Source of the DNA: Echinarachnius parma | Taxonomy: Eukaryota; Echinodermata; Echinoidea; Clypeasteroida; Echinarachniidae | Assembly: GCA_037951105.1 (NCBI GenBank) | Contig: JBAMJV010001298.1 | Location: 1-64,000, forward strand | DNA length: 64,000 bases | Reading direction: 5' to 3' | Shown here: positions 22,355 through 52,557 of the stretch, piece after piece | Numbering within the stretch: the stretch's first letter is position 1 | Layout of the letters: each line of letters begins with the position of its first letter | Made by a program: the position numbers and the translations under genes | The notes under the pieces: model-generated | Told to the model about the DNA's origin: nothing | Databases searched by the model: none | The model's input: only the letters and a program-made list of their open reading frames with translations

Positions 22355-25267
22355 TTAATGATACCTTGAATTTTGAACCAAAAGTGCATGCACCCTCTCT
22401 TTAAATGCAATTTGGTCTCTTACATATTTCCAATTGCTCATGTCCTCAAGGGTCTCCTGTAGCATGCCTCTTGACAGATCATTCACATCATCAGACATGA
22501 CTGCAATGTTGTCAAGGATGTATTCAATGGCTTCTAGTATTTCGGAAGCATAGCACTTCGGCAGGAGGTGGAACTGAAACTTGCAGGAACATAGTGCAAA
22601 TCGATTGTGGATATGCACAAACTGGTGAGCAATGCACTCCAGCAGTCCGGGTGGCTTGTGTTCTTGTCTGAAGTTATCAAACATAGCACACAAGAGATCT
22701 CTGCCTAACATCATTGAAAAAGATTCATATGAATCTTCTAACGCCGAGTCAAAAGCTATCTTGTATTTCCTGATAGCCGATGGGAGGTCGTTCTTATCTG
22801 TGAGGCATCTTGCCCACTTGAAGTGTGTGTTGCAGGTGGCCCTTGGATCTTGCGAGGCAGATGCCTCCTCAAACTTCTCTAGGGCCTCATCCATGAGTTT
22901 GTCAGCATCCCTTCTTTCAGTCAGGCTATGCATTGCCATCCGATGGTACACTTCACCCATATAAGCAATGACACTGGCGTCATATACATACTCTGCTGCT
23001 CGCTCTAGGTCAGCTTTTGCTCTGGTCAGGAACTCCAAAGATTCTCTTGCTCGACCCCGATTTCTTTTTGCTCTGTTAAATTTCTTGACCCATATTTTTG
23101 CTCTGTGATAGAGGGCATTACAGCAGGTGATTTTCTGGAGATGGTTCTCTGGTGACTCTGCCACATCGATGGCTCTGTCAAGCCAGTAGAGTGCATTATC
23201 TAGCTCCCCAATCTTGAAGTGGTAAGTGCCCAGCCTTCCCAAGATCCACACACAGTCAGGGTGTAACCCATTTGATGTGAGGTAGCACCGTAATGGGTCC
23301 TTCCATTCTTCTAGATAGATGTCTGAGATGAGCCCAGAGGGAATATCTAGTTTATTATTGCACTCTGCAATGGCTTTTCCCATCCTATACCAGACATGTG
23401 CTTGGTATGCTGTGCTCTGTTCAGACAGTTGGAGGCATTGGTGGAAGTCATCAACTGCCTTTACGATGAATGCAGAAGACATCTCTTTGTCGTCAACTTT
23501 CAAGTAGAAAAGACTTAGAACTCCATACATTTTTCCTCTGAACTGAAGCCAGTCTCTCTTTTCTTCCTCAAACTGTTCCCTCTCAATAGAATCTCCAGCA
23601 ATGCTGAAGGCATCTTCACACCACTGCACGTGGAGCCTGCGAAGATCAATGCCACGTAGTTCTGTGTTCATGTCCTTACGTAATGCATGTGCCTGTTCCA
23701 TTTTGCACCTTGCGTAGATCATCTTTGTGTCATCCGGGGAATTTTCACCACCAGTTGCTTGCTGGCATAGTGCTTCATAGCGCTCTGCCTCAGGGTCGTT
23801 TCCCTGTTCAGAGTAGGCTGTGGCCAAGTCTCGTAGGGCATTGATGTTTGCAGGGTCGTGTTCCAGTGCTTCTTTCCAGAGTTTGATTGCTCCAGCCTTC
23901 CTGTCGGAGCGGTAAAGCATCAAACCTAGGAAGGAGATGAATGTAGGGGAGATCTGGGTATAATTGGAGGGTTTGTGTATTCAAAGAATGATAACTGTAG
24001 CACAAGGACATTGAGAAGCATTTCAGAATAAAACCAATTTGTTGATGGAATAAACACACATTTACTCTGTTCTGCTATTTAATATAGTGCAAGCGCAACA
24101 CCTTTCCACAACAAATCTTTCATGAATATGCTAGTATAGGAGCAATTGCATGTCCAAAAGCTTGCTGTACATGCATTATTAAAGGGATAGTTTTTGTTGT
24201 TTTTGTTTTTAGTTGAGTTTTGATATAGAAGGCTCTACACAAAAACAATTTTTTTGTGAGATAATGAAAAACTGAGTGTCAAATATGAAAGAGCATACAA
24301 TTTTGTTATGAATAAACTTTATTTGATCAAAATCGGTTCAGAAATGGCTGAAATATCCATAATCATAACTATTTGTAATAATTGTGAGGCCTATAAATTA
24401 TTATAATTTGGAACAACCGTTAATTTTTTTTTTAATGCTTCCTCTTTTCAAAAATTTACAAATGAGGTTTTTAAATAATTGTTGATTATCTGTGTATCTA
24501 ATCACTATTACAACAAAACATAACATGCACAATATTTTATTTTAAATGGTTGAAACAATGAGTTTTTGGAGAGCGCCTGATGTGATGTTTGCTATAAAAG
24601 GACTTCAGTGAATATAAAGAATCATGAGCAAAAATCTGAGCCAAAACGGTAGAGCAATAAAAAAAAGTTCTGACAGGATGAACTTTGCTCAGATTTTGTG
24701 TATCGTTTGCAATTGCTATTGATCCTGACGTCACTTGCGAGCTGCTGCATTTTGACTTAGAAGTACATGAAAATAACAAATATATATTCAAATATTCTGA
24801 ATAACCAAGCAAATGTATGAGCTTACAAATTTCCTAAGTGGTTGACCTATTGATATTTTAGATAATTTTGTGAAAACAAGCAGAGAGATATTTATTTTTA
24901 GCAACAAAATGAGAAATTATTCATGTATACTAAAGCCATGGCGAGTTGCTTGTCAATTATGCTGCATTTGGCAGCAATTTTGAAACAATAGCTCATTAGT
25001 TACTACATGATGTTCAATTAATTACGCCATGCAGTATTTCTTGTCCGATTATGATATATATTCTGTTACTTTACCTTTGAGGTTCCTGGCAGCATTCAAA
25101 AAATGTTGGCTGTTATTGATCTTCGTCTCGAACATGGCATCCTGGCCAGCAATAATCTTAGCGATTTGCTTCTCTTCTGTCTGGCCATTATTGACTGCAA
25201 GCGAGGTGCAGCTAAGAAGACCTGGCACCGGCATTGTAGGCTCACCTGTCTCATCTGGGGCAGCCAT
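22355..25267 (-). CDS. tetratricopeptide-repeat protein (2 exons, 587 aa), family not resolved
   Basis: Exon 1 is 25267-25075 and exon 2 is 23925-22355; the junction (AAAG|GTAAAG ... CCTAG|GTTTG) keeps frame and yields NLKGLMLYRSDRKAG. The protein is helical with TPR-type 34-residue signatures: GAIKLWKEALEHDPANINALRDLATAYSEQG-like at about 75-105, VWYRMGKAIAE, CVWILGRLGTYHFKIGELDNALYWLDRAID at about 270-300, YMGEVYHRMAMH, and THFKWARCLTDKNDLPSAIRKYKIAF. No signal peptide, membrane span or catalytic motif is seen. TPRs are protein-interaction scaffolds. The overall plan recalls TTC22- or IFIT-type animal TPR proteins, but I cannot assign one. The ATG at 25267 follows a stop-containing region and starts MAAPDETGEP. 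The intron contains a MITE B/C chimera. Confidence 0.82.
24179..25045. mobile_element. MITE B/C chimera in the TPR-gene intron
   Basis: 24179-24575 follows family B from its TTAAAGGGATAG end to GAGAGCGCC. At about 24576 it switches to the interior of family C (TGATGTGATGTTTGCTATAAAA) and follows C to about 25045. Neither part has its other end. Confidence 0.7.
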
Positions 25268-25299
25268 GGTGGCTATAGTATAGCACTGTAGGCTAGCGC

Positions 25300-25860
25300 T
25301 AGCAGGGCCAGGGGGAAAAATAGAGGGATATGGTCACATAGTATATCGGCTCATGTAAAACAGTTTTTCATATATAATCTTTGCAAGAGTTTTAATTTGA
25401 TCTAAATACATCACTGATGAGAAAAAGTGTTGTTGCCATTTTTTAATTTTTGGTCCCAGGGTGCATTTTAGCAATTATAAAGATAATTAGCTAATTTTCA
25501 TATTTCTGAAATAAGGTCAGGGGTCATTTTCCATCTACGAATAGTACAGTAGTAATCAAAACAATCATGACAGGGTAATTTGGGGCAAGGAATCCACATT
25601 CCCAGTGCTCATTTTCATGTGCCGTATGAGCAACACCCTGAAATCCAAGATGGCTTCCCCAGGGTTGCCACCTTTGAGCTAGAGGTAAGAGTGAGACATT
25701 GCATAATTATGAAAATATCCTATCTGAAATCACCATCCTGATAAAAAATTCCATAAAACTCAACATATTGAATCAATAATGTAGGCTACAGATTGCGTAT
25801 TTTTAACAATTAAAATTATAATGTCAGTTTAATGAGTCCGGCTTCTTTAATTCTTTAATT
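25300..25860. other. upstream flank of the TPR gene, no feature seen
   Basis: No TATA box, exon or repeat structure recognised. An AT-rich stretch leads into repeat family T. Confidence 0.45.
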
Positions 25861-31302: not shown

Positions 31303-31804
31303 CTTGATTTAATATTATAGACATAAAATATGATCCTTCCTCTAACTTTTGATACCATATTTATTTATTAAGAACTACGGGAAATAATTTGTATCATTAG
31401 AATGTTTTAATTTGAACACTTTCTTTTTCTGAAGATGTAATACAACTGTGATGATGGTTCTATAATGTAATATGAATGGAAAGTATAACATTATAAAATA
31501 ATGTACTACACCCAAAGAAAATGATTTACATTATTGCTTTATTAAGTGGGTTATAACATATTTATGATAGTTATTGTCAATATGACTAGGGATGTTCTTG
31601 ATAGAAAAATATAACCTTGAATCCTGGTCAATATTCTAATCCAATAGATCAGTCCATTCACTTATAGAAACATGAAATGTGGGGGGGGGGGGGGGGGGGG
31701 GGGGGTGTTGCAAACAGAGTTGCAATCAATCGCAGAGTTGCGATTAATCACCAGTCAGAAAATATGTGCATTTGAACCAATCAGATTTGCGCATATAGCA
31801 GCTC

Positions 31805-33608
31805 TTGGTGCAACACCCCCAGACCTGATTATAACAAGGTTCCACTGTCTTGGTGCAACACCCCTGGACCTGATTATAACAAGGTTTCCACTGTCTTGGT
31901 GCAACACCCCTGGACCTGATTATAACAAGGTTCCACTGTCTTGGTGCAACACCCCCAGACCTGATTATAACAAGGTTCCACTGTCTTGGTGCAAAACCCC
32001 TGGACCTGATTATAACAAGGTTCCACTGTCTTGGTGCAACACCCCCAGACCTGATTATAACAAGGTTCCACTGTCTTGGTGCAACACCCCCGGACCTGAT
32101 TATAACAAGGTTCCACTGTCTTGGTGCAACACCCCCGGACCTGATTATAACAAGGTTCCACTGTCTTGGTGCAAAACCCCCGGACCTGATTATAACAAGG
32201 TTCCACTGTCTTGGTGCAAAACCCCCAGACCTGATTATAACAAGGTTCCACTGTCTTGGTGCAACACCCCCAGACCTGATTATAACAAGGTTCCACTGTC
32301 TTGGTGCAACACCCCCAGACCTGATTATAACAAGGTTCCACTGTCTTGGTGCAACACCCCCGGACCTGATTATAACAAGCTTCCACTGTCTTGGTGCAAC
32401 ACCCGGCCCAGACCTGATTATAACAAGGTTCCACTGTCTTGGTGCAACACCCCCGGACCTGATTATAACAAGGTTCCACTGTCTTGGTGCAACACCCCCA
32501 GACCTGATTATAACAAGGTTCCACTGTCTTGGTGCAACACCCCCAGACCTGATTATAACAAGGTTCCACTGTCTTGGTGCAAAACCCCTGGACCTGATTA
32601 TAACAAGGTTCCACTGTCTTGGTGCAACACCCCCAGACCTGATTATAACAAGGTTCCACTGTCTTGGTGCAACACCCCCGGACCTGATTATAACAAGGTT
32701 CCAATGTCTTGGTGCAACACCCCCGGACCTGATTATAACAAGGTTCCACTGTCTTGGTGCAACACCCCCAGACCTGATTATAACAAGGTTCCACTGTCTT
32801 GGTGCAACACCCCCGGACCTGATTATAACAAGGTTCCACTGTCTTGGTGCAACACCCCCAGACCTGATTATAACAAGGTTCCACTGTCTTGGTGCAACAC
32901 CCCCAGACCTGATTATAACAAGATTCCACTGTCTTGGTGCAACACCCCCAGACCTGATTATAACAAGGTTCCACTGTCTTGGTGCAAAACCCCTGGACCT
33001 GATTATAACAAGGTTCCACTGTCTTGGTGCAACACCCCCAGACCTGATTATAACAAGGTTCCACTGTCTTGGTGCAACACCCCCGGACCTGATTATAACA
33101 AGGTTCCAATGTCTTGGTGCAACACCCCCGGACCTGATTATAACAAGGTTCCACTGTCTTGGTGCAACACCCCCAGACCTGATTATAACAAGGTTCCACT
33201 GTCTTGGTGCAACACCCCCGGACCTGATTATAAGAAGGTTCCACTGTCTTGGTGCAAAACCCCCGGACCTGATTATAACAAGGTTCCACTGTCTTGGTGC
33301 AAAACCCCCAGACCTGATTATAACAAGGTTCCACTGTCTTGGTGCAAAACCCCCGGACCTGATTATAACAAGGTTCCACTGTCTTGGTGCAAAACCCCTG
33401 GACCTGATTATAACAAGGTTCCACTGTCTTGGTGCAAAACCCCCAGACCTGATTATAACAAGGTTCCACTGTCTTGGTGCAAAACCCCCGGACCTGATTA
33501 TAACAAGGTTCCACTGTATTGGTGCAACACCCCCGGACCTGATTATAACAAGGTTCCACTGTCTTGGTGCAAAACCCCTGGACCTGATTATAACAAGGTT
33601 CCACTGTA
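31805..33608. repeat. 45-bp minisatellite, about 40 tandem copies
   Basis: The unit begins TTGGTGCAACACCCCC and ends TTATAACAAGGTTCCACTGTC. Sites vary mainly at C/A in the AACACC/AAACC position and G/A/T before GACC. Variants are shared by groups of adjacent units (for example the AATGTC change recurs about 405 bp apart), pointing to multi-unit duplications. Because 45 is a multiple of three, long frames appear on both strands; I do not regard them as genes. Confidence 0.95.
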
Positions 33609-36722: not shown

Positions 36723-39700
36723 CTAGTCGACCAGGTCTGGGTGGACCACGCGTCCATTCTTGACCCGGTCCACGAGCCAGGCCAGAGCGTTGTTGATGTC
36801 CAGAGGCAGGTGGTCCTTGATCATCCCGGGCCGGACTGCAATGTGGTCAAACTGTCTATGGGGCACCCACTGCGCACAGTACTCCTCTTGGCTCCCACAG
36901 CATTTCCTGAAAAATACAAAAGAGAGAAAATACAAAATAAAACATCCTCCATCATCGAATTAAAAAACAAACAAAAAACATTTTAAAATAAGGATTTGTG
37001 TTCCTTGACTATCCTGAGCATGACTGCAAGGTGTTCTATGGGGCACCCACTGCACACAGTACTCTTCTTGACAATCCTGAGCCTGACTGCAAGGTGTTCT
37101 ATGGGGCACCCACTGCGCACAGTACTCTTCTTGACTACCGCAACATTTTCTGTAATATACAAACAAATATACGGTCGTGAATGTTATATTAGATGGAAAG
37201 GGGAAAGAGAAAGGCAGAAAATGTATATTAATCATAATCAAAAATGAAAAAGCAATAAGAAAGTAGGACTAGATGTGGTCAAACTGTCTATGGGGCACCC
37301 ACTGTGCACAGTACTCGATCCTCTTGGCTCCCACAGCATTTGCTGTAGATAAAAAAAGAGAGATAAACAATATCAACCATCATCCGACTAAAAACATTGT
37401 CAGATTTTCAAACAAGATAATAAACAAAAAGGACACAATATGAGTGTTCCTTGACTATCCCGTGCTGGACCACAATAAAAGAGAGAACAACAATATTAAC
37501 AAATTTTCCAACAATTAACTAACAAACAACAATGAACAAAACATATAAGAAAGAAAGCTATTTGGAGTACGTATTTATGAGTAGGATCCCATCATTATGA
37601 CACTGATTCAAACAAATATTAAAAAGCAATCTTGTTCATGAAACAAACAAAAGCAAGAGAAAGCATTAGAGAACCATAGAGCTTACCCAGAATGCATCTC
37701 TCTGCGCTGGATCCAGATCATGTGACCCGGCGTGAAGAGCGGCATGAACTCCTTGCACCCTCTACGACTCGTGGGGGCGCCATTGCTGGACGGACCTGGC
37801 TCATCGATGTCCACATCAATGCATGCTATGCCACCTTCTGGAAGCCGCCCATTACCTGCTGCGATAAACAAAGATAAAAGAATTCAGAAGATTGGATTTG
37901 AGAAAAATAGCTGTTTTTCACGAGTATTTGATGATCTGACAAGCAAACTAATGCCTTCATGAATATAGGCAAGGATAAGCTAACTCAGATAAAGGTTATA
38001 AAAAAAGCTGTTTGGACTCCTACTAAAACAGCTCACAACTTTACAAAGGTATTAAAATCTTACCCCTTTAAAGGGGTAGTACAGTTTTGGTAAGGCTGAA
38101 CTTTAGTAACCAAACCTGGACAGTAACATTATAAACTAATAGTTATAACTCTACCATGCTCGAAAGGTATACAAAATTACAAACGACTAAGTAAAAAGCC
38201 TGTTATCACTAAAAAAAAGAGCCATTAAAACACAAGAGGGTGCTTTCTAAAAAGGCATTGGTTTAAACCATTTTTCATACAAAATTATGCATGTGATGTT
38301 TTATTGAAATAATGATTAAATAGAGAGATCATCAACAACTATTTAAAAAACGCTTTTGAAAATTTTTGAAAAAGTGCAAGCATTTTTTTAATTTTTGGAA
38401 AAAATCATCTAATTATTTGATATTTCAGCCGTTTCTTGGTCGATTTTGACCAAATAAAGTTTATTCTGCCATTAAAATTGCATGTTCTCTCAAATTCGAC
38501 ACTCAGTTTTTCATTACCTCACAAAAAAATTGTGATGTGCAGCGCCCTCTCTACCAAAACTAAACTACCCCTTTAAGATTGATAAAAACTAATCAAATTG
38601 ATATAAATGGAATAAGTACTTACCACCTTGGCTGATTAAAGGCTGGTCATCAGTATTGAGGAGGGCGTATCCAGCAGGCTGTGCCCCCCTCGGTGTGACA
38701 GAAGGGGATGTCTAGGATGGGACACCCCCCCCCCCCTCCCCCATGGTCAGAATCCATCCAATTAACGCTTGAAAAAAAATGATGACATTATCTATATATA
38801 TAAATGGAATAAGTACTTACCACCCTGGCTAATTATAGGCTGGTCATCAGTATTTGGGGAGGGCGTATCCAGCGGGCTGTGCCCCCCTCGGTGTGACAGT
38901 AGGGGCTGTCTAGGATGGAGCTCCCCCCCCCCCCCCATGGTCAGAATACATCCAACTGTGCTTAAAACAATGAAATTATCTATAGATATAAATGGAATAT
39001 ATACTCACCACCCTGGCTGATTATAGGCTGATCATCTGTATGTGGGGAGGGCGTATCCAGCGGGGTGTGCCCCCCTCGGTGTGACAGAAGGGGCTGTCTA
39101 GGATGAAACTCACCCCCCCCCCCCCCCATGGTCCGAATACATCCAATTTGTGCTTAAAACAATGAAATTATCTATAGATATAAAAGGAATTTATATCCCT
39201 TCTATGAATATTCATGAGTATTCTAGAAACGTGATTGGTCAATTGGGGCTCTCACAATAAAGATTATTTCCACTATAAATCTGAAATCGGGGAATATTTT
39301 TCACTATCTTTGCCGATAGCAGAAATAGCAAGCATATCATATTGCCCGTAGAGATGCGTGTAATAACAGCTTCTCTGCGAGGGGAGGTCTTGTTTTAGCT
39401 TGCGAAAAATGCTCGACGAGATTTCCCAAAGAGTAATTTATAACGAAATACAGAATATTTTCACCCGTGAATATCAACAAGTTCCACAAAATATTCTAGA
39501 GATGCATTTCATGTATAACATGGCGGTTTTCGAAGTAAACAATTTCGAAAATGGTGCACATTTTGCATCGTTGTCCTTCCATGGTCGTGACAGTAATTCA
39601 TTTCATTTAATTTCATTTCATGTAATGTATGCTGTACGTACGAATAGCTGTTTTCCCATATTCAATTACACACGTGTGACGTACGTGTATGTAAAGCGGG

Positions 39701-42700
39701 TTAATTATTCACTTTGATGCGCGCGTTTTGCATTTGTGTGCGCATTAGTTGTTAATGCGCGTAACCATGAATGGAAACATAGCGCAATACGCGCTATGTG
39801 CCAGGACTATTGCGCTAAGGGGGCCAGTGTCACAAACAGAACATAGTGCAGTGATGGTTCTGTCATCAATGGTTTGTTTTTCCTTTATAATACTTAAATT
39901 TAATTGAAATCATTTATTTGTGCGATGATTATAATCATGCGAAGGATATATAGCAAACAGAAGGGATATAAAACAAATATACCAAGCTTTTAGTTCAAAA
40001 GTATAGTGGAATTATATATCTTCGGAGGGACTGGCATAGTTACTATTTTTGTCCTCGGGGCTTCGCCCCTCGGAAAAAATAGTTCTATGCCAGTCCCTCC
40101 TCAGATATATAATTCCACTATACTTTCTCACAGCTTGGTATATTTGTATAATATACTAACCACCCAGGCTGATTATAGGCTGGTCATCAGTGTTTGGAGA
40201 AGGTGTTTCCAGCGGGCTGTGCCCCCCTCGGTGTGACAGTAAGGGTTGCCTGGGGTTGCAGCACATCCCCCCTTCAGTGTCAGAACCCTCCTCACCCACT
40301 GGAAGGTTCTCTGGAAGCCCTCGACAGGTGTACCACAGCCCCTGAAGCAGGACACGGTACTACAGAAGAAGAGATAATACATGTAATAGAATTAATTGAT
40401 ATAGCATACTTATTTTAATGTGTATGTGTACCGTATTTGCCGGTGTATAAACCGCACCCCCCTTTTTTTTGCAAGTTTTTTTGAAAAAAAGTGCGGTTAA
40501 TACGCTATAAACCGCACCCGTGTAATAACCGCACCCCCATTTTTAAAATTAATTTTTTGTTGAAAAAAGGTGCGGTTAATACACCAGCAACTACGGTATG
40601 TAAGTTTGATTTATAGGTTAATGTTAATGTTGTTATTGTAATTTGTTGCAATATATTTCTGTAAAGCGCATAGAGATGTTTGTTCATATTATGCACTATG
40701 TAAATGTAATTTATTATTATTATAATTATTATTATAAAACAGTTACATATTTTAATGCTTTACACCATCATGCACCAAGTCATAGGGTTGACAAATCAGT
40801 ACAATCTTCTAATACTGTAAACGTGGTAATGTTCACGGTGCATTCATTTTCGCGGATTTCGCGCTGAAGCCGTCGTCCGCGAATATTAAAACCCGAGAAT
40901 ATAAATGCGCGATTTGCAATGCGTGTGAACTCTTTCTCGGCAGCGATATTAAAAACCTGCGAATGTGTTTTTGTGTCGCTCAGCGCGAAATATTAATCGC
41001 GCGAAATTAACAACGTTTACAATATTAAATTGGACACAAAACATTTACTGATCATTTTCTGGACACAAGTTGAACATAATACATCAGAAATTGCAACGAA
41101 AGTAAAAAGCTTTTAACTTTACCTTAGGCACAGAACAACTTCTAAGCAGCTCCAAAATCTGGTCTCTGAGCTGTTGAAGATTACACATGGACATCCTAAA
41201 CATAAATCAAATGCAAACACAAAGTTAAAAAAGTAAAATATTTGCTGAAGACATGTAATGTTTACTACTACAAACAATGAACCCTAATGAAAAATATACA
41301 AATAGTTTTTCATGTAATACAAATATTTTGTACCTGATTGATTGTCAAAAAAAAAACAAATAAATTCAGGATGAGTATGTTTTTCCTACATCCAGGTATC
41401 AATGCAAAATTAGCTCATCCAAATATTGGATGAGTTCACATTTTCTTCTGATAATGACATGGATCATAATTAAATAGTCCGGAGATAATATGAACAAAAA
41501 AACATTAATGATTCACAGGTTACATGATGTAAGATTTCTTAATTCCGTGCTACATACACTTTAAGGGTGGAATTCTCATCAACGGGTTAAATTTAGCACG
41601 TGCTAAAACGCGTCATTCGCGTCATTTACGTCAGAAGTAGGTTAAATTTAACCCACTGTAGTATGGAAAGCCGGGTAGTTAACGCTTTGCCACCATGGTC
41701 TTCCTTGGCATTTATCTTATTTTTTTCTTCATTCAATTAGCGCTTTCTATACTCGGTTTCGACAACGGAGGTATGGAGGTTTTCCCGCAAGATGAGTTCA
41801 AATCATATAGATGAAAATTCAAATAAATCTAGCAAAATCAACGATAATTGTCAAGTTTCTTCATACTTTTTCATACTTTCTTCTTGCCAGTTTAGCGTAA
41901 AAAATAAGCGTCAGGCGCAAAGGTTTATTCATAGGTTTTGTGTGGCGTTTGTGAAGGATGAGCGCGCAATTAGCAACAGGCGCGCATTTAAAAATCATCG
42001 CGCAATGTTTACCATGCGGCGCTCCATACAGTAGTGGGTTAAATTAAACCCAGGCTAAATTTAACCCGTTGATGAGAATTCCACCCTAAAGCTCTCCTTT
42101 TTTTGGTATAAGATACAATAATGATCCACAGCCAACAAGAACATTACTACAACTAATAAGGCTTAACAAAACAGTTCACCGCAGCCAAAAAATGACGAGA
42201 AAAACATCATCAATGGTAAATGACTGTCTCTTTATATAATTAGCATGAAAGTTCATCTGTAGTGGCATTTCATAAGAAGTAACAATTATAACTTTTGATC
42301 TCAATACAACTATTTACCTCCAAATTGTTCTGCTCTCATCTACATCTGATGAAGACTGTAGATGACAGCAACCAAAGTTGAATATGCAGTGTTATCAAAA
42401 GTTTAAATTGTTACTTCTCGTCCATGTATATACTTTGCAGGTATTTGTGTTATTAGAAAGCTTACCTTGGAACAACATCCATTCCTAAGACTACAGCTGT
42501 GACAAAATCTTGAGTGTAAAGCACTCCCTCAGCACTGCAAGAAAGAGAAGTACATTGCAATGGAACACAGTTGGTATTTGGTAAAATACAAATGATAGAC
42601 AATGGCTGAGTGCTTCAGTACAATATTTTTGTTTGCCAAAGTTAACTTTGAAATTGCTCCCATAGCACTCACAATGCTAATAATGATGTACACATTCTAC

Positions 42701-42975
42701 AATCTTCTAAAATTGCAGTAACTACATTTAAATATAGTGTTTATTATTCTGAATAAAGGTTTATTTTCTTCATTTCTGGCAGTGGACCTGGGATTTCTGT
42801 GTTTTACATCTTGCGTTATTCTTCTGAATTTAATAAAGATGAAGTAATGTATCAATATTTTGTTCACATTTTCAAGAGCAAACTTTGTCTACTACTTTAT
42901 AAATTATAATACACTAACAGATTGACTGACAAACTAACAAGCACACATAGGGATATATAGAAATACAGGGATACA

Positions 42976-43035
<60 letters not shown>

Positions 43036-46000
43036 CGCACACACACACACACATACTTGTAATTGGTGCAAATCGGGGTCTGTAATTTTGAGTCTATTTA
43101 ACGGTACCCCCATCCGGGGATGGTTGTGTGTGGTATTTTAAATGCAAGTGGGGACACATAAATTTGAAACCGGGGACGCCCAATTTGTTTGTGACATGTA
43201 ATTTGCACCACTCTCCCTATGTCCACAAAATAGGGGACCGTCCTGTTCCGATACGTCCCCGGTTTGAATGTACGGTGTCATACTTACGTCCCCGTTTGGA
43301 GGTGATTACACATGCGCACACACACACACACACGCACACAGACAGATATTGGACCTACTTGACAAGGCCACCAGGAGGTGAGAAGGCAAAGGCTTTGATT
43401 TCTGGGTATTCTTCCCTGAGCAGGATGTACAAGATGGATAGACAGACACACATACACACAGACATACAGACACAGACAGACAGTCAGACAGACACACACA
43501 CATACAGACATACAGACAGACAGACAGATATTGGACCTACTTGACAAGGCCACCAGGAGGTGAGAAGGCAAAGGCTTTGATTTCTGGGTATTCTTCCCTG
43601 AGCAGGATGTACAAAATGGATAGACAAACACACATACACACAGACATACAGACACAGACACACAGTCAGACAGACACACACACATACAGACATACAGACA
43701 GACAGACAGATATTGGACCTACATGTACTTGACAAGGCCACCAGGAGGTGAGAAGGCAAAGGCTTTGATTTCTGGGTATTCTTCCCTGAGCAGGATGTAC
43801 AAGATGGATAGACAGACACACATACACACAGACATACAGACACAGACAGACAGTCAGACAGACACACACACATACAGACATACAGACAGACAGACAGATA
43901 TTGGACCTACTTGACAAGGCCACCAGGAGGTGAGAAGGCAAAGGCTTTGATTTCTGGGTATTCTTCCCTGAGCAGGATGTACAAAATGGATAGACAAACA
44001 CACATACACACAGACATACAGACACAGACACACAGTCAGACAGACACACACACATACAGACATACAGACAGACAGACAGATATTGGACCTACATGTACTT
44101 GACAAGGCCACCAGGAGGTGAGAAGGCAAAGGCTTTGATTTATGGGTATTCTTCCCTGAGCAGGATGTACAAGATGGATAGACAGACACACATACACACA
44201 GACATACAGACACAGACAGACAGTCAGACAGACACACACACATACAGACATACAGACAGACAGACAGATATTGGACCTACTTGACAAGGCCACCAGGAGG
44301 TGAGAAGGCAAAGGCTTTGATTTCTGGGTATTCTTCCCTGAGCAGGGTGTACAAGATGGATAGACAGACACACATACACACAGACATACAGACACAGACA
44401 CACAGTCAGACAGACACACACACATACAGACATACAGACAGACAGACAGATATTGGACCTACATGTACTTGACAAGGCCACCAGGAGGTGAGAAGGCAAA
44501 GGCTTTGATTTCTGGGTATTCTTCCCTGAGCAGGATGTACAAGATGGATAGACAGACACACATACACACAGACATACAGACACAGACAGACAGACAGTCA
44601 GACACATACACATACATACAGACAGACAGACAGACAGACAGATATTGGACCTACTTGACAAGGCCACCAGGAGGTGAGAAGGCAAAGGTTTTGATGTCTG
44701 GGTATTCTTCTCTGAGCAGGATGGACAAGATGGTCGCCACTCCAGCTCCTAGACTGTGCCCAACTATGACTAACTTGTAACTCTGCAGATAGATAGAACA
44801 AATCACAATTGATCAAAAGATAATTCACCTTCACAAGGCCTCAAAGATTCTTGACAATTCTCAAATCATCTCATTTTTGTAAATTTACATTTGATTTATT
44901 TTTTTTAATATCATTTGGTAACACATATATTTAAAAAAATCTAAAACGCTGTAAAATTGAAATCATGTTACTCAAAATCTTGAAGGACAGTGATATCAAG
45001 ATAAAACAATCAATTTAAATGTTACAACTAGAAATTCCATCTCACTGGGTATCTTTTGGAAGCATCTTCTAGCAGTTTTTCTCTAATTTCAGCGAGGATG
45101 GATTCCGATTCCGTTTTTAACTTACTTTAAAAAAATAAAAATCAGAGAGTCAATAATGAACTAAATCTTACAGGGTGTCTTTCGAAAGCATTTTCAAGTA
45201 GTTTTTCTTCTCGTAGCCGTGCAAGAATGTTCTTTGAGTTGTTGACGACACCGCGGTGGCCGTATATGTCGTGACCTTCCACATCCAGCTTCTCTGCAGC
45301 AGCAGAAATATCCGTCAGTATGTCCTGCAATTAAAGTTGGTTGGATGAATTGTGAATACAAATACCAGGGGGTGTTTCACAAAGATCCTAAGTTGATCTT
45401 AACTCTAAGTTAGACTTTAGAAGTATGGAAAGCCATTAGTTTCTTTGAAAATTGTTATAAAAATCCTTTTTCAAAGGCAGGAGTTTTCATGTTGCTGATG
45501 ATGAAAAGTTTAAAATTCTTGCTTTGTTGCTTTTGAATATACATTATATTGTATTCCAATGCTACAAATGGCTTTTCATAATAATTAAATCCAACTTGGA
45601 ATTAAGTTAAACTTAGAATCTTTGTGAAACACCCCCCTGATTTATTTGATTGAAATCATTATTATCATCACAACCTTCCACATCTAACTTCTCTGCTACA
45701 ACTGACTCATCTGTGAGCATGTCATACATGTCATACACAGTTGGATGAAGTGTGAATACAAATAGCTGATTTATTTGATTGAAATCATTATTATCATCAC
45801 AACCTCCCACATCTAACTTCTCTGCTACAACTGACTCATCTGTGAGCATGTCATACAATCACAGTTGGATGAAAAGTTTGAATAAGAATTATCTGATTAA
45901 TTTGATTTAAAAACATTGTTATTTGTTAACACATTACACTTTGAACCCCTTAACCCATTGAAGACTACATCATTTGAGTATAGTTACATGTGATGACACA

Positions 46001-49000
46001 CGCAGTACCCCGGGGTACCATTGTACCCCGGTATCCCGCGTTGTGTAGCGCCATCTTGTGTCCACCCGAAGTACAACCGTACCAAAGAGCAATCATGGAT
46101 GCCGCTGGTGTATTGCATTGTGCATGCAGCGCTTTTATGCACGCTACCCCGGCCGCAAAGAGAGCATTTTGAACGTAAATAAAGCATAACGAAAATAATT
46201 TTACACTCTTTGGTACCCCGGTGTACAGCCCTGAAAAATAAATAAATAATTAAACAAAAAGGCGGATTTTCATTTGGTACCCCAGGGTACCATTTATGTC
46301 ATGTATTGCCTATAGATCCCATGATCTCTAGATATGCTTGTAAAATAATTTATGGTTACATGAGATAGGGTGGAATGTGTGCTCTGCCACGTTATGTTGA
46401 TTTGCATGTTATTCTAGCATATTGACATCGATGAGTTAGAGCCAATGATGCTAATTACCATGGTAAATGTCGCTGGTCTGTAATCGAGCCCCTTGGCCCT
46501 GTTCTAGTTGGGTAAAATGGAAACAATCTTACCTTAGAATTATATCATGGTATAACTATCAAGTGATATCAGTTATCTAGTAGTCATGATATTCCTATCA
46601 AATCATCATTCCATCAGTGGAATTAAGCATCAATGAAATTTGGTGGACCATGGTTATTTTTAGTGGCCCAGTGGCCGAGAGCACGATCATGACCGATGAC
46701 CAGACCTGGTTCCACTGATCTTTAAATATGCTTGTGCAAGCCTTTATGGTTGAATGAGTAAGGGAGGTATGTACTATGTTTGCTCTGCTACGTTCTATCG
46801 AGTTTCATATTATTCAATATATTATTCTTGCATATTGACATCGATGAGATAGTGTCAATGATGCTAATCACCATGGTAAATGTCGCTGGTCTGTAATGTG
46901 GCCCCTGGGCCCGGGGCCACTGGGCCAGTTTTAATTTTGAGCACCGAGTATCATCTTACCTGGAATGAGAGTGTACCACGTATTGCAACAACCACAGATT
47001 TGTGTTCATGGTCCAGCACCACATAGAACGGACTCTGGAAAATCTGTACAGAGGAGAAAAGTTCAGTAATTTTTAATTAAGTTTATATATAAACACTGGA
47101 CATAAAGTTCATTAAAATACACAATATGTCAGTCAAAATGCGTCAAGCTATCAGACTTGTGTTTAAGGTCCAGCATCACATACTAAGGAACTGGCCATAG
47201 CTCTGACGGCTCTGTTATTACACCAACAACAGATAATCAGATATCAATCAATCCTCTACAATTTTTAAACTACATCTGTAAGGACCTATCCCTAGTGCAG
47301 ATAGGAAATTGAACCGTAAACATTCCTAGTGTAGGACTTGCCTTGTTGTGGAAGCTAAGGAAGAGAAGATCTTCCTCATCTGCACTGGCCATAGCTCTGA
47401 CGGCAGTGGTGTTGCATTGGCAGCAGTTATCCCCTCGAATATGTTCAGAACCCTTGCGACATGCACCACAGTACCTGCAAAATTCAATCAAAGTATAGTC
47501 ATTATTTCATGCAAGGCAATTCTTCCTATCAATACATGTGCTTCTAAAAGAATAAGAGCCTATAGGCAATAGTAGGATGGGGAATATGAAAATTGATTTA
47601 AGTGCAAACCCTACTTCCCATCAATTGATTCTGAAATGCCGGACATATCATGAATGGCCCATCAAATGTTTAATGTATGTTTAAAAGTCTGCAGCTTACT
47701 TCAGACTGAGCTATCAATGAAAGGGCTAAAAGCCCAAAACTATCTCTCCAGTCTGAACTAAACAGGGACTGTAAGAAGGGCCTGGTCCTTATATATACTA
47801 ACTTTCCTGAGCAGCACAGCTTACATAGCCAGCATCCCAGATCAGACTGGGCTAGGAGGGGCCAGCCGTTGGATGCCATAGAGTACTGGTAGTAGTGCTG
47901 GACCGTCTCTAGTCTAGTCTCGACAGGGTCACCTGGTAGGGCCACATCTGGTCCAGGATCCTTCGTAGGGAGGGCATTGGGCATCCTTTCCTGGATCCGG
48001 CGCTCCTGTTCTACCTGGGCTAGTATGAGTCCTGCAACTATGTCTGATAGCACCAAGTCATAGTTCTGTTGAAGGAACAATGAGCATTGATTTAAGGGGA
48101 TGTTTATCACTAAAAATCAATGACAGTGTTAGTGAAACGCCCTATGGATCTCTTTAAAAATTACAACAATTACTACAGGATGATTACAATCTGTGTTATG
48201 ATAAGTCCAGCTACTTTATCTGATAGCACCAAGTCATAGTTCTGTTGATGGAAAGATGGGAGGATAAGGACCAACTACTTAATCTGATCTCTATCAAAAT
48301 TGATACAATTACTACAAAAGTATTCCAACCTGTGCTAAGATGAGGCTGGTAACTATGTCTGATAGTACACCAAATCGTAGTTATGTTGATGGAAAAATGG
48401 GAGGATAAGTATCTGCCATTTAAATCAGAGGGTGTTTCAATAAAAAAGGGGGGGGGGGGGAATGCTGCTAAAAGTGATTCTTGTGTTAGTATTCATAAAA
48501 CATTTCAAACATTACGATTGCTACAAAATTATTACAACCTGTACTAGCAACTTAGCTATGTCTAATGGCACATCTCTAGTGGTTGTTTAATGTCTGTTTG
48601 TTTTCCTCTTACTAATAGTATGAAACCAGCTTGTCTTTGATTTCACAGGTTGAACTTGTGTAACATTCTACTCGCCATAACATCTCCCTGCATCAATTGT
48701 TACTGGCCCTGGGGCAAAGGGCAAGTGCTAGTATCAAACCCTGTGATTTAGCATTCACTAGCATTGAGCTTTCCATGTTATTTATTCTTATTATTTTACA
48801 AAAGACAAAGTTGATTTTTGGCTAAATGGAGATCTGGCCCCATATTCATGAACCCCGCTAGCTTTATTAGTTCCTTGCTAAGTGTATTTTAGATGTGCAG
48901 TTTATTGAGCAACAAACAGTTTTCCTAGTCCCCAACTAGAGTAAGCTGGTTAAGCAGTAGGTACCCACTGTTTACCCTAGTTAGCAACTAGCGGGCTTTC

Positions 49001-52000
49001 ATGAATATGAGCCCAGTATACCATCTTGTAGGTCGGAGCCTTGTGTGTTTGATGCTAATTTTTTCAGATAATAATTATCCTGAATATGGGTATATTTATC
49101 AAAATAAAAGAGAGCTGAATTTGGTTTCTACATGTTTAACTCCCAAATATTTAACTAGATTATCTCTGAAGTTCAAAAGACGACTACAGGTCCCCTCTCT
49201 ATCTCAACAAACAAAATTGAAGCAAATTTACCTGAAAAATTGTAGCGAAGACAGCTGCTGCTTCTGCATAGGCAATCTGAGAATTCTCATCTTTCCTTTC
49301 CGAACAGCAGCACAGCCGACATCTGCAACATGTTTGACAACATCAGAAATTAAACTGACTTTCTCAATAGACAATGTTTGATTTGGTTGAGAGGCATATA
49401 CCATCACTTTAATTAAAAATTGATATATAAAAAGAATGTAGATTATAATGATGATAACTTTAGTAATGGTAGAAAGCAAAAAGTAAGAGTTTTGGGGCCA
49501 CTAACATTTTTTAAATGATCTTGTTTTTGTTTGCCCAACTAGGCCACAAGAGAAAAGTTAACTTCCAGCGCAAATGTTTGAATATATTATACCTCTTCTC
49601 CCATCGATCATGGTTGTCAAACTGGTTGTGCTCTCGGCCATGCTTGCCGCCAAACAGGATGCAGACCCCGATGAAGACTACGACGAGAAGGAACCAGGCA
49701 AAGACCAGAGCCACCTGGACCAGACGGACCACGCTGATGTCACAACTATGATCTGTGGGGTCAAACTCCCAGTCCTTGAAGATCCACACAGCCCCAACCT
49801 GCACAAATATAATGGAACCTGTATTAGTGGTCACCTGTCTATAATGACCACCTTTCTATTGCAGCCATTGTTTCTAATGACCCCTAATCATTATAGTGGT
49901 AAAGTGGACACATTTAAGGACAGGTTGAAATATCATTTGTTTCAAACAGCATTTAAGTACTTAGACCTTTCTTCTTCTTCTTCCCTTCATTCTTGTTTGT
50001 TTCATTATTATAAACTTTTTCAATGCGCTTTGAGCCCCTTATTAGGTGGACATTGCGCAATATAAATATTCAATTTTATTATTTTATTATCATTATTATT
50101 ATATTATGTACTCAAATATCTACATAGTCCCAACCTGCAACAATTACAATTATTTTACTGCAATTCAAGCTTCTGTATTAAGCGCAATTCAGAACTATTT
50201 TTCCTTCAATTTAAAGCCATTTTTATTTTTTTGTCTCTCTTATCAAGAATAAATATAGAATTCATATAACAAAAGCTCTAATATCTATTAGGAATTATAA
50301 AGTAACAAGTTGGGCCCCTCACCATACTATTCCCAGTCCTATAAGATTTACACAACCTACAATAATACAATTTAACCTGTGTTAGTGGCCACCTTTCTAT
50401 AACAACCACTATCTATAATGACCACTTATTTTGCATCCCACAGTCATTATATTATGTCCTTGAAGATCCCCACAACCTCAACCTGCAAAAATACAATCAT
50501 TAAAACTGCGAAATAGCTTCCATCAGAGCAAATTATGTTGTAATCAAAACCATTTATGTTAAAAGAAATGGTTACATAATATCTGTTCATCTTATCTTCT
50601 CATCAAAATTAGTATATTTATCTCAAGTTAGAGTTTGTGATAGGGCTTTGATAAGGATTAAATATCTTTATTTCTTTATGAATAATAAAGCAATAATCAC
50701 CAAAGCAAATGTCATATACTGATAAAGCTTCAAAATCTCTAGCCATTTTTTAGTCTCAAGAAAAATATCTAAAATACTAACCACGCTAGCACCAATCTCT
50801 GCAAAGAAGACCAGAGTCCTAATGTAGAGCAGTTTTGGGAGCATCCGACGAGGCTCTGCATTGGTGATGGTTCCCCGTCCGCTGACCACACCCACCAGCG
50901 TCTCCAAGGTAACCGTGATGCTCAGTACTGAGATGAGACCAATCAGGAAGCCGGACAGAAGATGGCCGCCGGTGCAGGCATTAATTGCTGGACGCTGGAC
51001 AACAAAGATGGCCACCGCACAGGCCAAACTGAAAAGCAACAGGAAAAGCAATATAACCCATTAATGACGATTTGATTTTGGTATAACATTCAGGACCTAT
51101 CCTGAATGGATTTTAAAAATGAAAATGAATCGACTGCGCGCAGTCGAAAATGATGCCTCCGCCATTACGCGATTTATTTATATCAAATCAACATGTACAC
51201 TGAATTAATTCTGTCAACTCAATTTTGATGGTACTCTGTCTTTTAGATCTTGACGTATCACAATTATGAGCTATAAGTGACCTTGACCTTTGCCGTCATG
51301 ACCCAAAAATCTAATGACTACAATTGCTCCCTAAGATTCAGGTATCAAGTTGGATTGAAATCTGATATTCAGTTCTTGGGATTTCCAATCACAAGCTACT
51401 TTTACATATAATGAGCCCTCAGCCCTGTGACCTTTGACCTCATGACCACAAAATCAAATCAGTTCATTGGCTCCCCAAGAAACATACATGTACCATGTTT
51501 GGTCAGAATCCGTCAATTGATTCTTGAGATAACGTGATCATGAGCTGTTTCTTGCATATATAATAAGCTCTGTGACCTTTGATGTTTGACCTCATGACCC
51601 CAAAATCTAATCAGTTCATTGGCTCCCCAAGATACATACATGTACCATGTTTGGTCAGAATCCGTCAATCTGTTCTTTAGATAATGCGATCAGGAGGTAT
51701 TTTTGCATATATATAATGAGCTCTGTGACCTTTCACCTCATGACCCCAAAATCTAACCAGTTCATCGGCCCCCTAAGTTACATACATGTACCAAGTTTGA
51801 ACAGACTCCGACAATCCGTTCTTGAAATAACGCGATCACGAGCTATTTTTGCATATATAATGAGCTGTGACCTTTGACCTCATGACCCCAAAATCTAATC
51901 AGATCATCGGCCCCCGAAGATACATACATGTACCAAGTTTGGTCAGAATCTGTCAATCCGTTCTTGAGATAAAGCGATCACGAGCTATTTTTGCATTTAT

Positions 52001-52557
52001 AATGAGCTCTGTGACCTTTGACCTTTGACCTCATGACCCCGTCAATCCGTTCTTGAGATAACGCGATCACGAGAACGGGACGTACGGACGGACGGACGGA
52101 CAACCCGAAAACATAATATGCCTCCGGCAACTTTGTTACGGAGGCATAAAAATAATAATTGTCTAGCAACTGAATATGTAGGGCTCACCACTAGCACTTG
52201 ACAAATTGCCAAGGGCAAGTACAAATTTCTGTCAGGCAAGTAACATTTCTAGTTTGGTTTTCTTTTGACTATTAAGAGGAGAATGTTATTCCTTATGTGT
52301 AAATCTAATCTACAATTAAGCAAGCAAGAACATTTTCTGTTAGGCCAGGTATATATATATATCAGTATAATATTTTACTTGCCCAATCAGGGGAATAGAA
52401 TCAAAGTAAAGGATTGCTATATATTATTACTGTATTTCAAAAGTTTGTACTATTAAACTTACAATGCTAGTCTAACGATGACAGAGCCGAGGGCAGGAAA
52501 CACCAGGTCATCTCCCCCGACCTGCCAGCGTCTGTTGAAGAGGATTAGGGCCGGCAT
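36723..52557 (-). CDS. DAGLB: diacylglycerol lipase, DAGLB-like (complete coding region, 14 exons, 698 aa)
   Basis: Exons on the minus strand: 52557-52463, 51028-50782, 49798-49593, 49322-49232, 48065-47803, 47474-47342, 47043-46960, 45324-45172, 44782-44655, 42534-42466, 41195-41123, 40359-40161, 37858-37687, 36906-36723. All phases agree and the stop is TAG at 36725-36723. DAGL hydrolyses diacylglycerol at the sn-1 position to give 2-arachidonoylglycerol, at the plasma membrane. The N-terminus ([20 protein letters not shown]) matches DAGL family starts, and four hydrophobic spans follow (about 24-42, 50-75, 95-115, 140-165). Next come Cys-rich blocks and the class-3 lipase domain: [17 protein letters not shown], nucleophile motif GHSLGAG (Ser434), VVLGMDVVP (Asp486). 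Exon 12 starts [10 protein letters not shown]. The short C-terminus fits DAGLB rather than the long-tailed DAGLA. In the motif [10 protein letters not shown], Trp629 stands where family members have the catalytic His. Intron 6 has a GC donor. Confidence 0.93.
37000..37478 (-). pseudogene. partial copies of DAGL exon 14 (5' part) in intron 13
   Basis: At 37150-37093 an acceptor-like ATTACAG leads into [17 protein letters not shown]. At 37345-37262 another (ATCTACAG) leads into the same segment but with a four-base insertion that shifts the frame. 37075-37000 and 37478-37447 hold further fragments. The true exon 14 lies downstream at 36906. Confidence 0.85.
38068..38576. mobile_element. TTAA-flanked MITE family B in DAGL intron 12
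   Basis: TTAA borders with ends AGGGGTAGTACAGTTTTGG and AAAACTAAACTACCCCT, 509 bp. Confidence 0.82.
38620..39130 (-). pseudogene. three tandem partial copies of DAGL exon 12 (3' part plus donor) in intron 12
   Basis: Units of about 190 bp begin at roughly 38620, 38817 and 39006. Each encodes a version of [11 protein letters not shown][S/T]PLDTPSP followed by [10 protein letters not shown] and a donor (GTAAGT or GTGAGT). The lowest copy has a one-base loss that breaks the frame. A poly-G run on the minus strand precedes each. Confidence 0.88.
39191..40149. mobile_element. element K/L: AGAAGGGATATA ends and an adjacent hairpin
   Basis: 39191-39970 has mirrored ends TATATCCCTTCT and AGAAGGGATATA. 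Directly next, 39973-40149 is a long hairpin (AAATATACCAAGCTTTT... with GGGGCTTCGCCCC at its tip). They may be one composite. Both lie in DAGL intron 12. Confidence 0.7.
40429..40598. mobile_element. MITE family M (TACCGTATTTGCCGGTGTAT ends)
   Basis: Ends TACCGTATTTGCCGGTGTAT and ATACACCAGCAACTACGGTA; the interior repeats GTGCGGTTAATAC and ATAACCGCACCC. It lies in DAGL intron 11. Confidence 0.8.
40600..40735. mobile_element. SINE 3' tail fragment
   Basis: TTTCTGTAAAGCGCATAGAG, then TATGCACTATGTAAATGTAA and a TTATTA tail, the usual tail plan of marine invertebrate SINEs. The tRNA head is missing. Confidence 0.5.
40813..41026. mobile_element. MITE family N (TACTGTAAACG ends)
   Basis: TACTGTAAACGTGGTAATGTTC-type left end and mirrored AACAACGTTTACAATA right end. 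The interior repeats TCGCGG/CGCGAA motifs. Confidence 0.68.
41571..42090. mobile_element. MITE family O with ~30-bp terminal inverted repeats
   Basis: GGGTGGAATTCTCATCAACG at the left and CGTTGATGAGAATTCCACCC at the right are exact reverse complements, extending into GGGTTAAATTTA. The left flank is TTAA and the right flank TAAA. It lies in DAGL intron 10. Confidence 0.88.
42979..43055. repeat. (CA)n microsatellite
   Basis: About 75 bp of CA repeat in DAGL intron 9. Confidence 0.95.
43330..44640 (-). pseudogene. seven tandem partial copies of DAGL exon 9 (3' part plus donor) in intron 9
   Basis: Copies end (donor side) at about 43347, 43528, 43711, 43898, 44081, 44268 and 44451; the real exon's donor-side sequence is at 44643. 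Each encodes [19 protein letters not shown] followed by SPPGGLV and the donor GTAGGTCC, then CA/CAGA microsatellite. The copies resemble each other more than the exon (EIKAF against DIKTF). Spacings alternate 183 and 187 bp, with an ATGT insertion in alternate units, so a 370-bp dimer is the recent unit of spread. Confidence 0.93.
45046..45115 (-). pseudogene. diverged copy of DAGL exon 8 3' part with donor
   Basis: Encodes [19 protein letters not shown] before a GTGAGA donor, paralleling [19 protein letters not shown] and GTAAGA in exon 8. It lies just downstream of the exon in intron 8 and has no matching 5' part. Confidence 0.75.
45367..45638. mobile_element. element P, intact copy
   Basis: GGGGTGTTTCACAAAGATCC at the left, with mirrored GGATTTAAG...ATCTTTGTGAAACACCCCC at the right; 272 bp, in DAGL intron 7. 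Confidence 0.8.
45655..45860 (-). pseudogene. two partial copies of DAGL exon 8 5' part in intron 7
   Basis: Both encode [15 protein letters not shown] followed by [E/G]G, against [17 protein letters not shown] in the exon. The intron sequence in front (TTTGTATTCACACTTCATCCAAC) also matches that before exon 8, but the true acceptor TTGCAG is lost. Confidence 0.8.
45990..46290. repeat. GGTACC-rich repeat region
   Basis: GTACCCCGGGGTACC, GGTACCCCGGTGTAC and GGTACCCCAGGGTACC lie within 300 bp and can pair with each other. Nature unknown. Confidence 0.5.
46345..46915. repeat. two ~150-bp direct repeats in DAGL intron 7
   Basis: CATATTGACATCGATGAG and ATGCTAATxACCATGGTAAA with GTCGCTGGTCTGTAAT recur at about 46418-46495 and 46829-46905. 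Confidence 0.75.
47155..47215 (-). pseudogene. mosaic of DAGL exon 7 and exon 6 fragments in intron 6
   Basis: On the plus strand, CAGACTTGTGTTTAAGGTCC parallels exon 7 (CAGATTTGTGTTCATGGTCC), and AACTGGCCATAGCTCTGACGGC parallels exon 6 (CACTGGCCATAGCTCTGACGGC). The two are fused within 60 bp. Confidence 0.75.
48186..48575 (-). pseudogene. three partial copies of the DAGL exon 5 5' edge in intron 4
   Basis: 48186-48258 keeps AACAG|AACTATGACTTGGTGCTATC as in the exon. 48325-48405 keeps a more diverged version. 48535-48570 is a short remnant (TAGCTATGTCTAATGGCAC). All lie upstream of the real exon. Confidence 0.8.
49905..50095 (+). pseudogene. 3' end of a non-LTR retrotransposon in DAGL intron 2
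   Basis: Encodes [15 protein letters not shown], a typical C-terminal end of CR1/L2-type reverse transcriptases (F-K-x-x-L-K-x-x-L-F-x-x-A-F). The 3' region ends GCGCAATATAAATATTC and a TTATTA tail. Confidence 0.65.
50105..50495 (-). pseudogene. partial copies of the DAGL exon 3 5' edge in intron 2
   Basis: 50455-50494 matches the exon 3 start with its acceptor (GTCCTTGAAGATCC...CAACCTGCA). 50328-50385 is another copy that continues into the flanking GTTAGTGGCCACC intron sequence. 50118-50145 is a shorter one. Confidence 0.75.
51255..52145. repeat. repeat family U array with AGGTCA-type motifs (DAGL intron 1)
   Basis: About seven units of roughly 120-145 bp, most with TGACCTTTGACCTCATGACC, then AAAATCTAATCAGTTCAT, TACATGTACCAAGTTTGG and GAATCCGTCAATC. 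The array ends with a GGACGGACGG run and GGAGGCATAA. Confidence 0.87.

Follow-up and report, generated by a model that had tools for sequence, protein, structure and literature searches.

Partial copies of exon borders in a diacylglycerol lipase beta gene of Echinarachnius parma and their relation to local head-to-tail duplication

The diacylglycerol lipase beta gene and the partial copies of its exons

The window analysed here is a stretch of 64,000 nucleotides of the Echinarachnius parma genome (contig JBAMJV010001298.1, positions 1 to 64,000). A gene for a TPR protein occupies positions 22355-25312 on its minus strand, with a product that shares 34-37% identity with uncharacterised Diadema proteins and 41% with another, unnamed protein. 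The gene of main concern is a diacylglycerol lipase beta (DAGL-beta) gene:

36723..52557, minus strand: diacylglycerol lipase beta gene, 14 exons, 697 amino acids (open spliced frame, Lipase_3 domain, echinoid homologues)

The spliced model runs through 14 exons from 52557 to 36723 on the minus strand and comprises 697 codons and zero stops. All 13 acceptors are AG and the donors are GT at 12 introns and GC at one, that following exon 6. The product carries a Lipase_3 domain (E 2.7e-18). Along its whole length it shares 65-67% identity with the DAGL-beta proteins of Strongylocentrotus purpuratus, Lytechinus pictus and Diadema setosum, and identity with one further, unnamed protein is 68%. In a tree of 11 proteins it was placed among echinoids, within Diadema (support 87/86), on a long branch. 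An earlier reading of the sequence alone (the sequence-only reading) had proposed a 14-exon diacylglycerol lipase gene, and the intact frame, the Lipase_3 domain and the echinoid homologues bear this out. Intron 2 contains a dispersed repeat of about 200 bp (window positions 49893-50096).

Copies of exon parts were detected by self-BLAST, nhmmer, a per-exon test (E 1e-3) and alignments. The following features were recorded, in the order of the exons concerned:

50456..50497, minus strand: exon 3 copy 1, acceptor and 5' part, AG kept (nhmmer, self-BLAST, alignment)
50331..50450, minus strand: exon 3 copy 2, acceptor and 5' part, AG kept (nhmmer E 1.9e-7 over 50329-50423; alignment)
50108..50190, minus strand: exon 3 copy 3, weak, acceptor and 5' part, AG kept (73-74% identity; 50098-50154 matches 50446-50501)
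48328..48446, minus strand: exon 5 copy 2, acceptor and 5' part, AG lost (nhmmer, per-exon test, alignment)
48191..48328, minus strand: exon 5 copy 1, acceptor and 5' part, AG kept (self-BLAST, per-exon test, alignment)
48458..48542, minus strand: exon 5 region copy 3, weak, intron part alone aligned (alignment)
47150..47210, minus strand: composite of 21 bp of exon 6 (identical) beside 31 bp of exon 7 (87%) (self-BLAST, per-exon test, alignment)
45802..45930, minus strand: exon 8 copy 1, acceptor region and 5' part, AG lost (nhmmer, self-BLAST, alignment)
45673..45764, minus strand: exon 8 copy 2, acceptor region and 5' part, AG lost (nhmmer, self-BLAST, alignment)
45368..45636, no strand: 269-bp palindromic stretch lying between exon 8 and the copies upstream of it (inverted self-match)
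45039..45082, minus strand: exon 8 downstream copy, 3' part with donor, GT kept (44 bp at 81.8%, E 1.6e-4 in self-BLAST; alignment)
43308..44547, minus strand: exon 9 array, 3' part with donor in seven copies, units of 188 and 182 bp alternating (self-BLAST, nhmmer, per-exon test)
39966..40154, no strand: palindrome inside the DNA of about 1 kb lying between exon 12 and its array (self-BLAST)
38569..39137, minus strand: exon 12 array, 3' part with donor in three copies, with a unit of about 188-198 bp (nhmmer, per-exon test, alignments)
37266..37475, minus strand: exon 14 copy 1, acceptor and 5' part, AG kept, 4-bp insertion (nhmmer E 2.6e-24; alignment)
37004..37166, minus strand: exon 14 copy 2, acceptor and 5' part, AG kept, 63-bp internal tandem repeat (nhmmer, alignment)

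Direct partial copies thus adjoin six of the 14 exons (3, 5, 8, 9, 12 and 14), on which self-BLAST, nhmmer and the per-exon test agree, and the composite in intron 6 adds a weaker case for exons 6 and 7, each represented by one short piece (E 8e-6 each in the per-exon test). The same test found no local copy of exons 1, 2, 4, 10, 11 and 13 at E 1e-3. None of the 14 exons had an inverted local match, and none matched in the reversed-sequence control. The self-alignment that had been proposed as a check against chance similarity confirmed the direct copies. A whole-exon copy with both borders was sought by nhmmer, the per-exon test and alignments, and none was seen in the gene.

These results substantiate the proposal of partial copies beside at least six of the 14 exons, and most of the individual counts were matched: up to three copies had been named for exon 3, where three lie upstream, two upstream and one downstream for exon 8, and seven and three for exons 9 and 12, where all lie downstream. 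The exon 8 downstream copy was found by self-BLAST and missed by nhmmer. Three copies had been counted at exon 5, where two upstream copies include the junction and the third is the weak match of intron sequence; at exon 14 the proposed number of about four reduces to two upstream copies with an acceptor and one internal re-duplication of 63 bp. The statement that copies fill the introns was too strong, since they span about 3.1-3.6 of the 13.7 kb of intron in the gene (summed from the coordinates above), or about one quarter.

The sequence-only reading had also formulated a rule, according to which a copy lies upstream when it contains the exon's 5' part with an acceptor and downstream when it contains the 3' part with a donor, and this holds for every copy listed. 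The rule is forced by the geometry of tandem duplication; it is therefore evidence for tandem over dispersed copying and for nothing beyond that. The direct, head-to-tail layout, together with the lack of inverted copies in this gene, supports the further proposals that the copies stem from tandem duplications across exon-intron borders and that the sole usable copy is the one joined to the rest of the exon. Spacing is regular at exon 9 (182/188 bp), exon 12 (about 188-198 bp) and exon 8, where the acceptor copies would be 130 and 129 bp apart if the 269-bp palindromic stretch were omitted (measured by hand from the alignment). This stretch and the one of about 1 kb at exon 12 both appear to have been inserted into older arrays, and the alternation of 188- and 182-bp units at exon 9 points to recent growth by dimers.

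The adjacency of exon 6 and exon 7 pieces in intron 6 might suggest that some copies were made by RNA-templated copying of a spliced message. The composite lacks an exact exon 6-7 joint, however, and each of its pieces obeys the position rule; two border duplications followed by deletion of the sequence between them could yield the same arrangement. At the six other exons the copies include intron sequence, and we regard an RNA template as highly improbable.

An assembly artefact or unmerged haplotypes could in principle mimic local copies, and near-identical stretches of some myosin genes do occur on different contigs of this assembly (1.2 Gb, 14790 contigs). The units are short, however, and the junction-bearing copies have diverged from the corresponding exon part by about 3-26% of the bases aligned, which makes assembly error unlikely. 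With exon 5 as the query in a search for a second copy of the DAGL-beta gene, exon 5 occurred a single time in the assembly. When a longer query from the gene was used, 39 of the 40 matches scored were other copies of the intron 2 repeat, 84-90% identical. We consider an origin of the copies in the assembly barely credible.

Splice sites in the partial copies

Of the 20 copies that span a junction, 17 retain the AG or GT dinucleotide, as judged from the alignments: 3/3 at exon 3, 1/2 at exon 5, 0/2 at the exon 8 acceptor, 1/1 at the exon 8 donor, 7/7 at exon 9, 3/3 at exon 12 and 2/2 at exon 14. Identities flanking the junctions in the copies are roughly 70-98%. By our estimate from these alignments, 17 of 20 is about what drift would leave, and the numbers would accordingly give no sign that extra sites are either used or purged.

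Two of the arrays deserve attention with respect to a possible function. The donors of the three exon 12 copies read GTGAGT, GTAAGT and GTAAGT and are nearer to the consensus than the donor of exon 12 itself, GTTAGT. In all seven exon 9 copies, a cryptic AG derived from the exon lies behind a pyrimidine-rich stretch and is followed by GT, delimiting a potential segment of 57 nt, a multiple of three and in phase, that is open in six of the seven. Both features would suit copies used as cassette or decoy exons that tune splicing, and the exon 9 array could then add in-frame units of 19 residues. The remaining evidence argues against such use. One of the exon 9 segments holds a TAA, and AG has been lost in 3 of the 20 junction-bearing copies. 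Purifying selection on the exon 9 copies was sought by column variation and none was seen: across six of the array's copies, variable columns number 3 of 79 in the exon-derived part compared with 2 of 109 in the spacer, so the exon part is no better conserved than the spacer. Furthermore, the seven homologues aligned have no insertion at the exon 9-10 joint, and the added residues would adjoin the invariant PPGGL of the lipase domain. We judge the use of the copies as cassette or decoy exons to be quite improbable.

Myosin-head exons and the background of local duplication

A search of the same genome for myosin-head exons returned 82 matches, 30 of them as loci, and these were examined. Removal of seven near-duplicates (L023, L025, L032, L036, L042, L043 and L049) left 23 distinct exons. 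Direct partial copies were present within about 1.6 kb of 13 of the 23 and inverted local copies of none, and so the notion that the DAGL-beta gene is special finds no support. Exon bounds were here taken from the domain match and are not exact; copies reach or cross this bound in 8 of the 13 exons, and in the others (L028, L030, L031, L038 and L046) the aligned part lies inside the exon, with no spare splice site demonstrated. The position rule fits all 13 exons with copies, bar one 30-bp upstream fragment at L035, which corresponds to positions 97-126 of the 174-bp exon, past its middle, and shares its end base with the longer copy. The exons of L035 and L036, on contigs C1237 and C9272, are 97.7% alike while their upstream copies differ in spacing and length; the two are perhaps haplotypes.

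Pooling of the 14 DAGL-beta and 23 myosin exons, a sample of one gene and one domain family, gave direct copies at 21 of 37 exons, inverted copies at 0/37 and matches in the reversed control at 0/37; the DAGL-beta share of this count is 8 of 14, exons 6 and 7 included. In a hand count over the same 37 exons, again with exons 6 and 7, acceptor edges made up 16 of the 22 exon edges with copies (P 0.05). The TPR-protein gene was tried as a further sample and gave two matching stretches, too few for use.

Among 874 segments of 180 bp from random loci, 150 had a direct local match, 166 an inverted one and 17 a match in the reversed control. Beside the myosin exons the frequency of local duplicates was 67/253 (26%), about half the exon rate, and in the DAGL-beta introns it was 19/78 (24%) with the exon copies masked and 60/126 unmasked; the DAGL-beta segments share half their length with one another, and further exons may lie in the myosin flanks. 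Taken raw, the exon rate is significantly above that of the myosin-side segments (odds 3.6, P 0.0004). A duplicate pair that involves an exon diverges on one side and an intron pair on both, so one would expect the exon pair to be recognisable for about double the time. Doubled intron rates predict 53% (from 67/253) and 49% (from 19/78) against the 57% seen in exons (P 0.38 and 0.21). Restriction to stricter matches (at least 85% identity over at least 40 bp), found at 11 of 37 exons, led to the same outcome against doubled introns (P 0.15 and 0.22). As doubling removes the significance of the excess over genic introns, a hotspot at exon edges is not required, and exons may simply record a widespread process.

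Compared with random segments the picture is different: the exon excess over 150/874 persists after doubling (P 0.004), as it does for stricter matches (11/37 in exons, 57/874 in random segments; P 0.006 after doubling), which means that our inference rests on genic introns as background. Two further comparisons with random loci were made with sets of 26 myosin loci, from which only four of the seven near-duplicates had been dropped. Local duplicates were present at 16/26 loci and in 436/2508 random segments. When matches were divided by identity, every class below 95% was richer in exons than in random DNA, and the class above 95% contained 0/26 exons compared with 23/2508 random segments. 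Composition, young transposons and the freezing of the exon side confound all these comparisons with random loci, that with the 874 segments included. Intron flanks of 100 bp beside exons, for which the 26 loci were again used and in which both sides drift, had duplicates in 12/80 cases versus 103/988 in random DNA (P 0.19); a recount minus three near-duplicate loci gave 10/74.

Exon borders could themselves be mutational hotspots for tandem duplication, for example through exon-positioned nucleosomes or transcription-linked breakage. The contrast between 21/37 exons and 150/874 random segments speaks for this, as do the enrichment in all identity classes below 95% among the 26 myosin loci (near-duplicates partly removed) and the nucleosome length of many units; moreover, the doubled expectation from random loci falls short of the exon rate, and a roughly twofold hotspot is compatible with the sample. 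Against a hotspot speak the rates of 26% beside the very same exons and 24% in the DAGL-beta introns, the non-significant flank test, and the loss of significance over genic introns after correction for the longer memory of exons. On balance we hold a hotspot at exon borders to be unlikely.

The DAGL-beta gene is comparatively dense in local repeat families, with 6.95 per 10 kb versus 2.55 in 20 random loci. Circular shifting of the exon map over the footprints of all local repeats was tried as a basis for enrichment and revealed no excess: the shifted maps touched a mean of 5.98 junctions, compared with 5 observed, and 3.99 families, again compared with 5 observed. Because whole arrays are counted, this null is too lenient, and the test was set aside.

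Unit length and a proposed explanation

In 112 local repeat families collected from 327 kb, the smallest shift between copies lies at 120-220 bp in 53 families (median 170) and at 220-260 bp in one. The drop at 220 bp is sharp: of nine families at 200-260 bp, eight are below 220 (P 0.001). Tandem Repeats Finder reported 416 arrays, 377 of them with units shorter than 50 bp, and among the 39 longer arrays 18 have units of 120-219 bp, none of 100-119 bp, none of 220-279 bp and four of 288-370 bp. Locus L051, which overlaps L033, is omitted from both sets. The BLAST set has a lower peak near 60 bp as well, which its low-complexity filter may have produced. Overall, about half of the families, those at 120-220 bp, have units of roughly nucleosome length, for which about 145-220 bp was taken.

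We propose that frequent local head-to-tail duplication, in about half of the cases of 120-220 bp, together with the geometry of such events and the memory of the exon side, accounts for the partial exon copies, and we regard this explanation as probable. The genome would often duplicate local segments head-to-tail. Where the duplicated DNA includes an exon border, function would stay with the copy attached to the remainder of the exon, and the other would become a partial exon with one splice site on its outer side. Having an acceptor or a donor and usually not both, the partial copy would presumably be ignored in splicing and drift. The exon side of the pair would be held constant by selection, the duplication would remain recognisable for about twice as long, and exons would seem richer in copies than introns. 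The data directly show the copies and their tandem layout, the occurrence of such copies at other exons, the unit lengths and the rates. The neutrality of the copies, their being ignored in splicing and the factor of two are what we infer, and the factor of two is a model rather than a measurement. Against the explanation stand the acceptor-side bias (16/22 edges, P 0.05), which plain neutrality does not predict, the raw exon excess (P 0.0004), the excess over random segments that persists after doubling (P 0.004) and the denser repeat families of the DAGL-beta gene (6.95 vs 2.55).

The unit length is the most novel part of the finding. The ruler behind units of about 170 bp may be the nucleosome, the Okazaki fragment or something else. 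More tentatively, and with the odds somewhat against it in our assessment, tandem duplication might be measured by chromatin, in that replication or repair repeats about one nucleosome length genome-wide; about half of all exons would then have a fossil copy, many with a spare splice site, and exons would serve as frozen references from which rate and ruler can be read.

In tandem exon duplication and mutually exclusive exons, whole exons are copied with both splice sites. The copies described here resemble these in being exon-derived and within introns, but none of those in the DAGL-beta gene contains both borders of its exon, and the AG of the exon 9 copies is cryptic and of exonic origin. 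The human IFI6 (6-16) gene has a tandem repeat of a splice-donor-like sequence at an exon end, in one gene and with 12-bp units. As in IFI6 a donor site is multiplied by tandem repetition; unlike IFI6 several exons are affected and the units are longer. For 15 Drosophila lines, PMC2891723 cites 1901 duplications, mostly tandem, with a median of 367 nt, 624 of which included some exonic sequence. The duplications in E. parma agree with those described there in being small, local, tandem and inclusive of exonic sequence. They differ from the intron gain by tandem duplication treated there, in which a coding duplication gives rise to a new intron, in that an existing border is crossed and the frame stays intact, and also in that copies adjoin 21 of the 37 exons sampled. 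With regard to unit length they are comparable to satellite arrays: according to PMC8122249 the majority of satellite units have either nucleosomal length or 5-10 bp, and an accumulation of units around 160 and 190 bp was described for Daphnia pulex in PMC3152781. Unlike large satellite arrays, the exon-derived units form groups of two to eight copies within genes. In the open-access literature, we found no report of exon-edge copies at this density. In kind this is ordinary tandem duplication, whose density and unit length merit a count across the genome.

If about half of the exons in an animal genome adjoin partial copies, many of them with extra splice sites, splicing must routinely tolerate decoys, and exon definition could be tested on natural constructs. 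The copies would furthermore constitute raw material for new or extended exons, and exon fragments can enter gene predictions made for such genomes. A unit of nucleosome length at single loci would link chromatin or lagging-strand synthesis to the onset of tandem repeats.

Two further repeats were noted elsewhere in the window. Positions 4932-7440 contain a tandem duplication of about 1.2 kb, 90% identical, and positions 31803-33608 an array with a 91-bp step, 96.5% alike and open in several frames on both strands.
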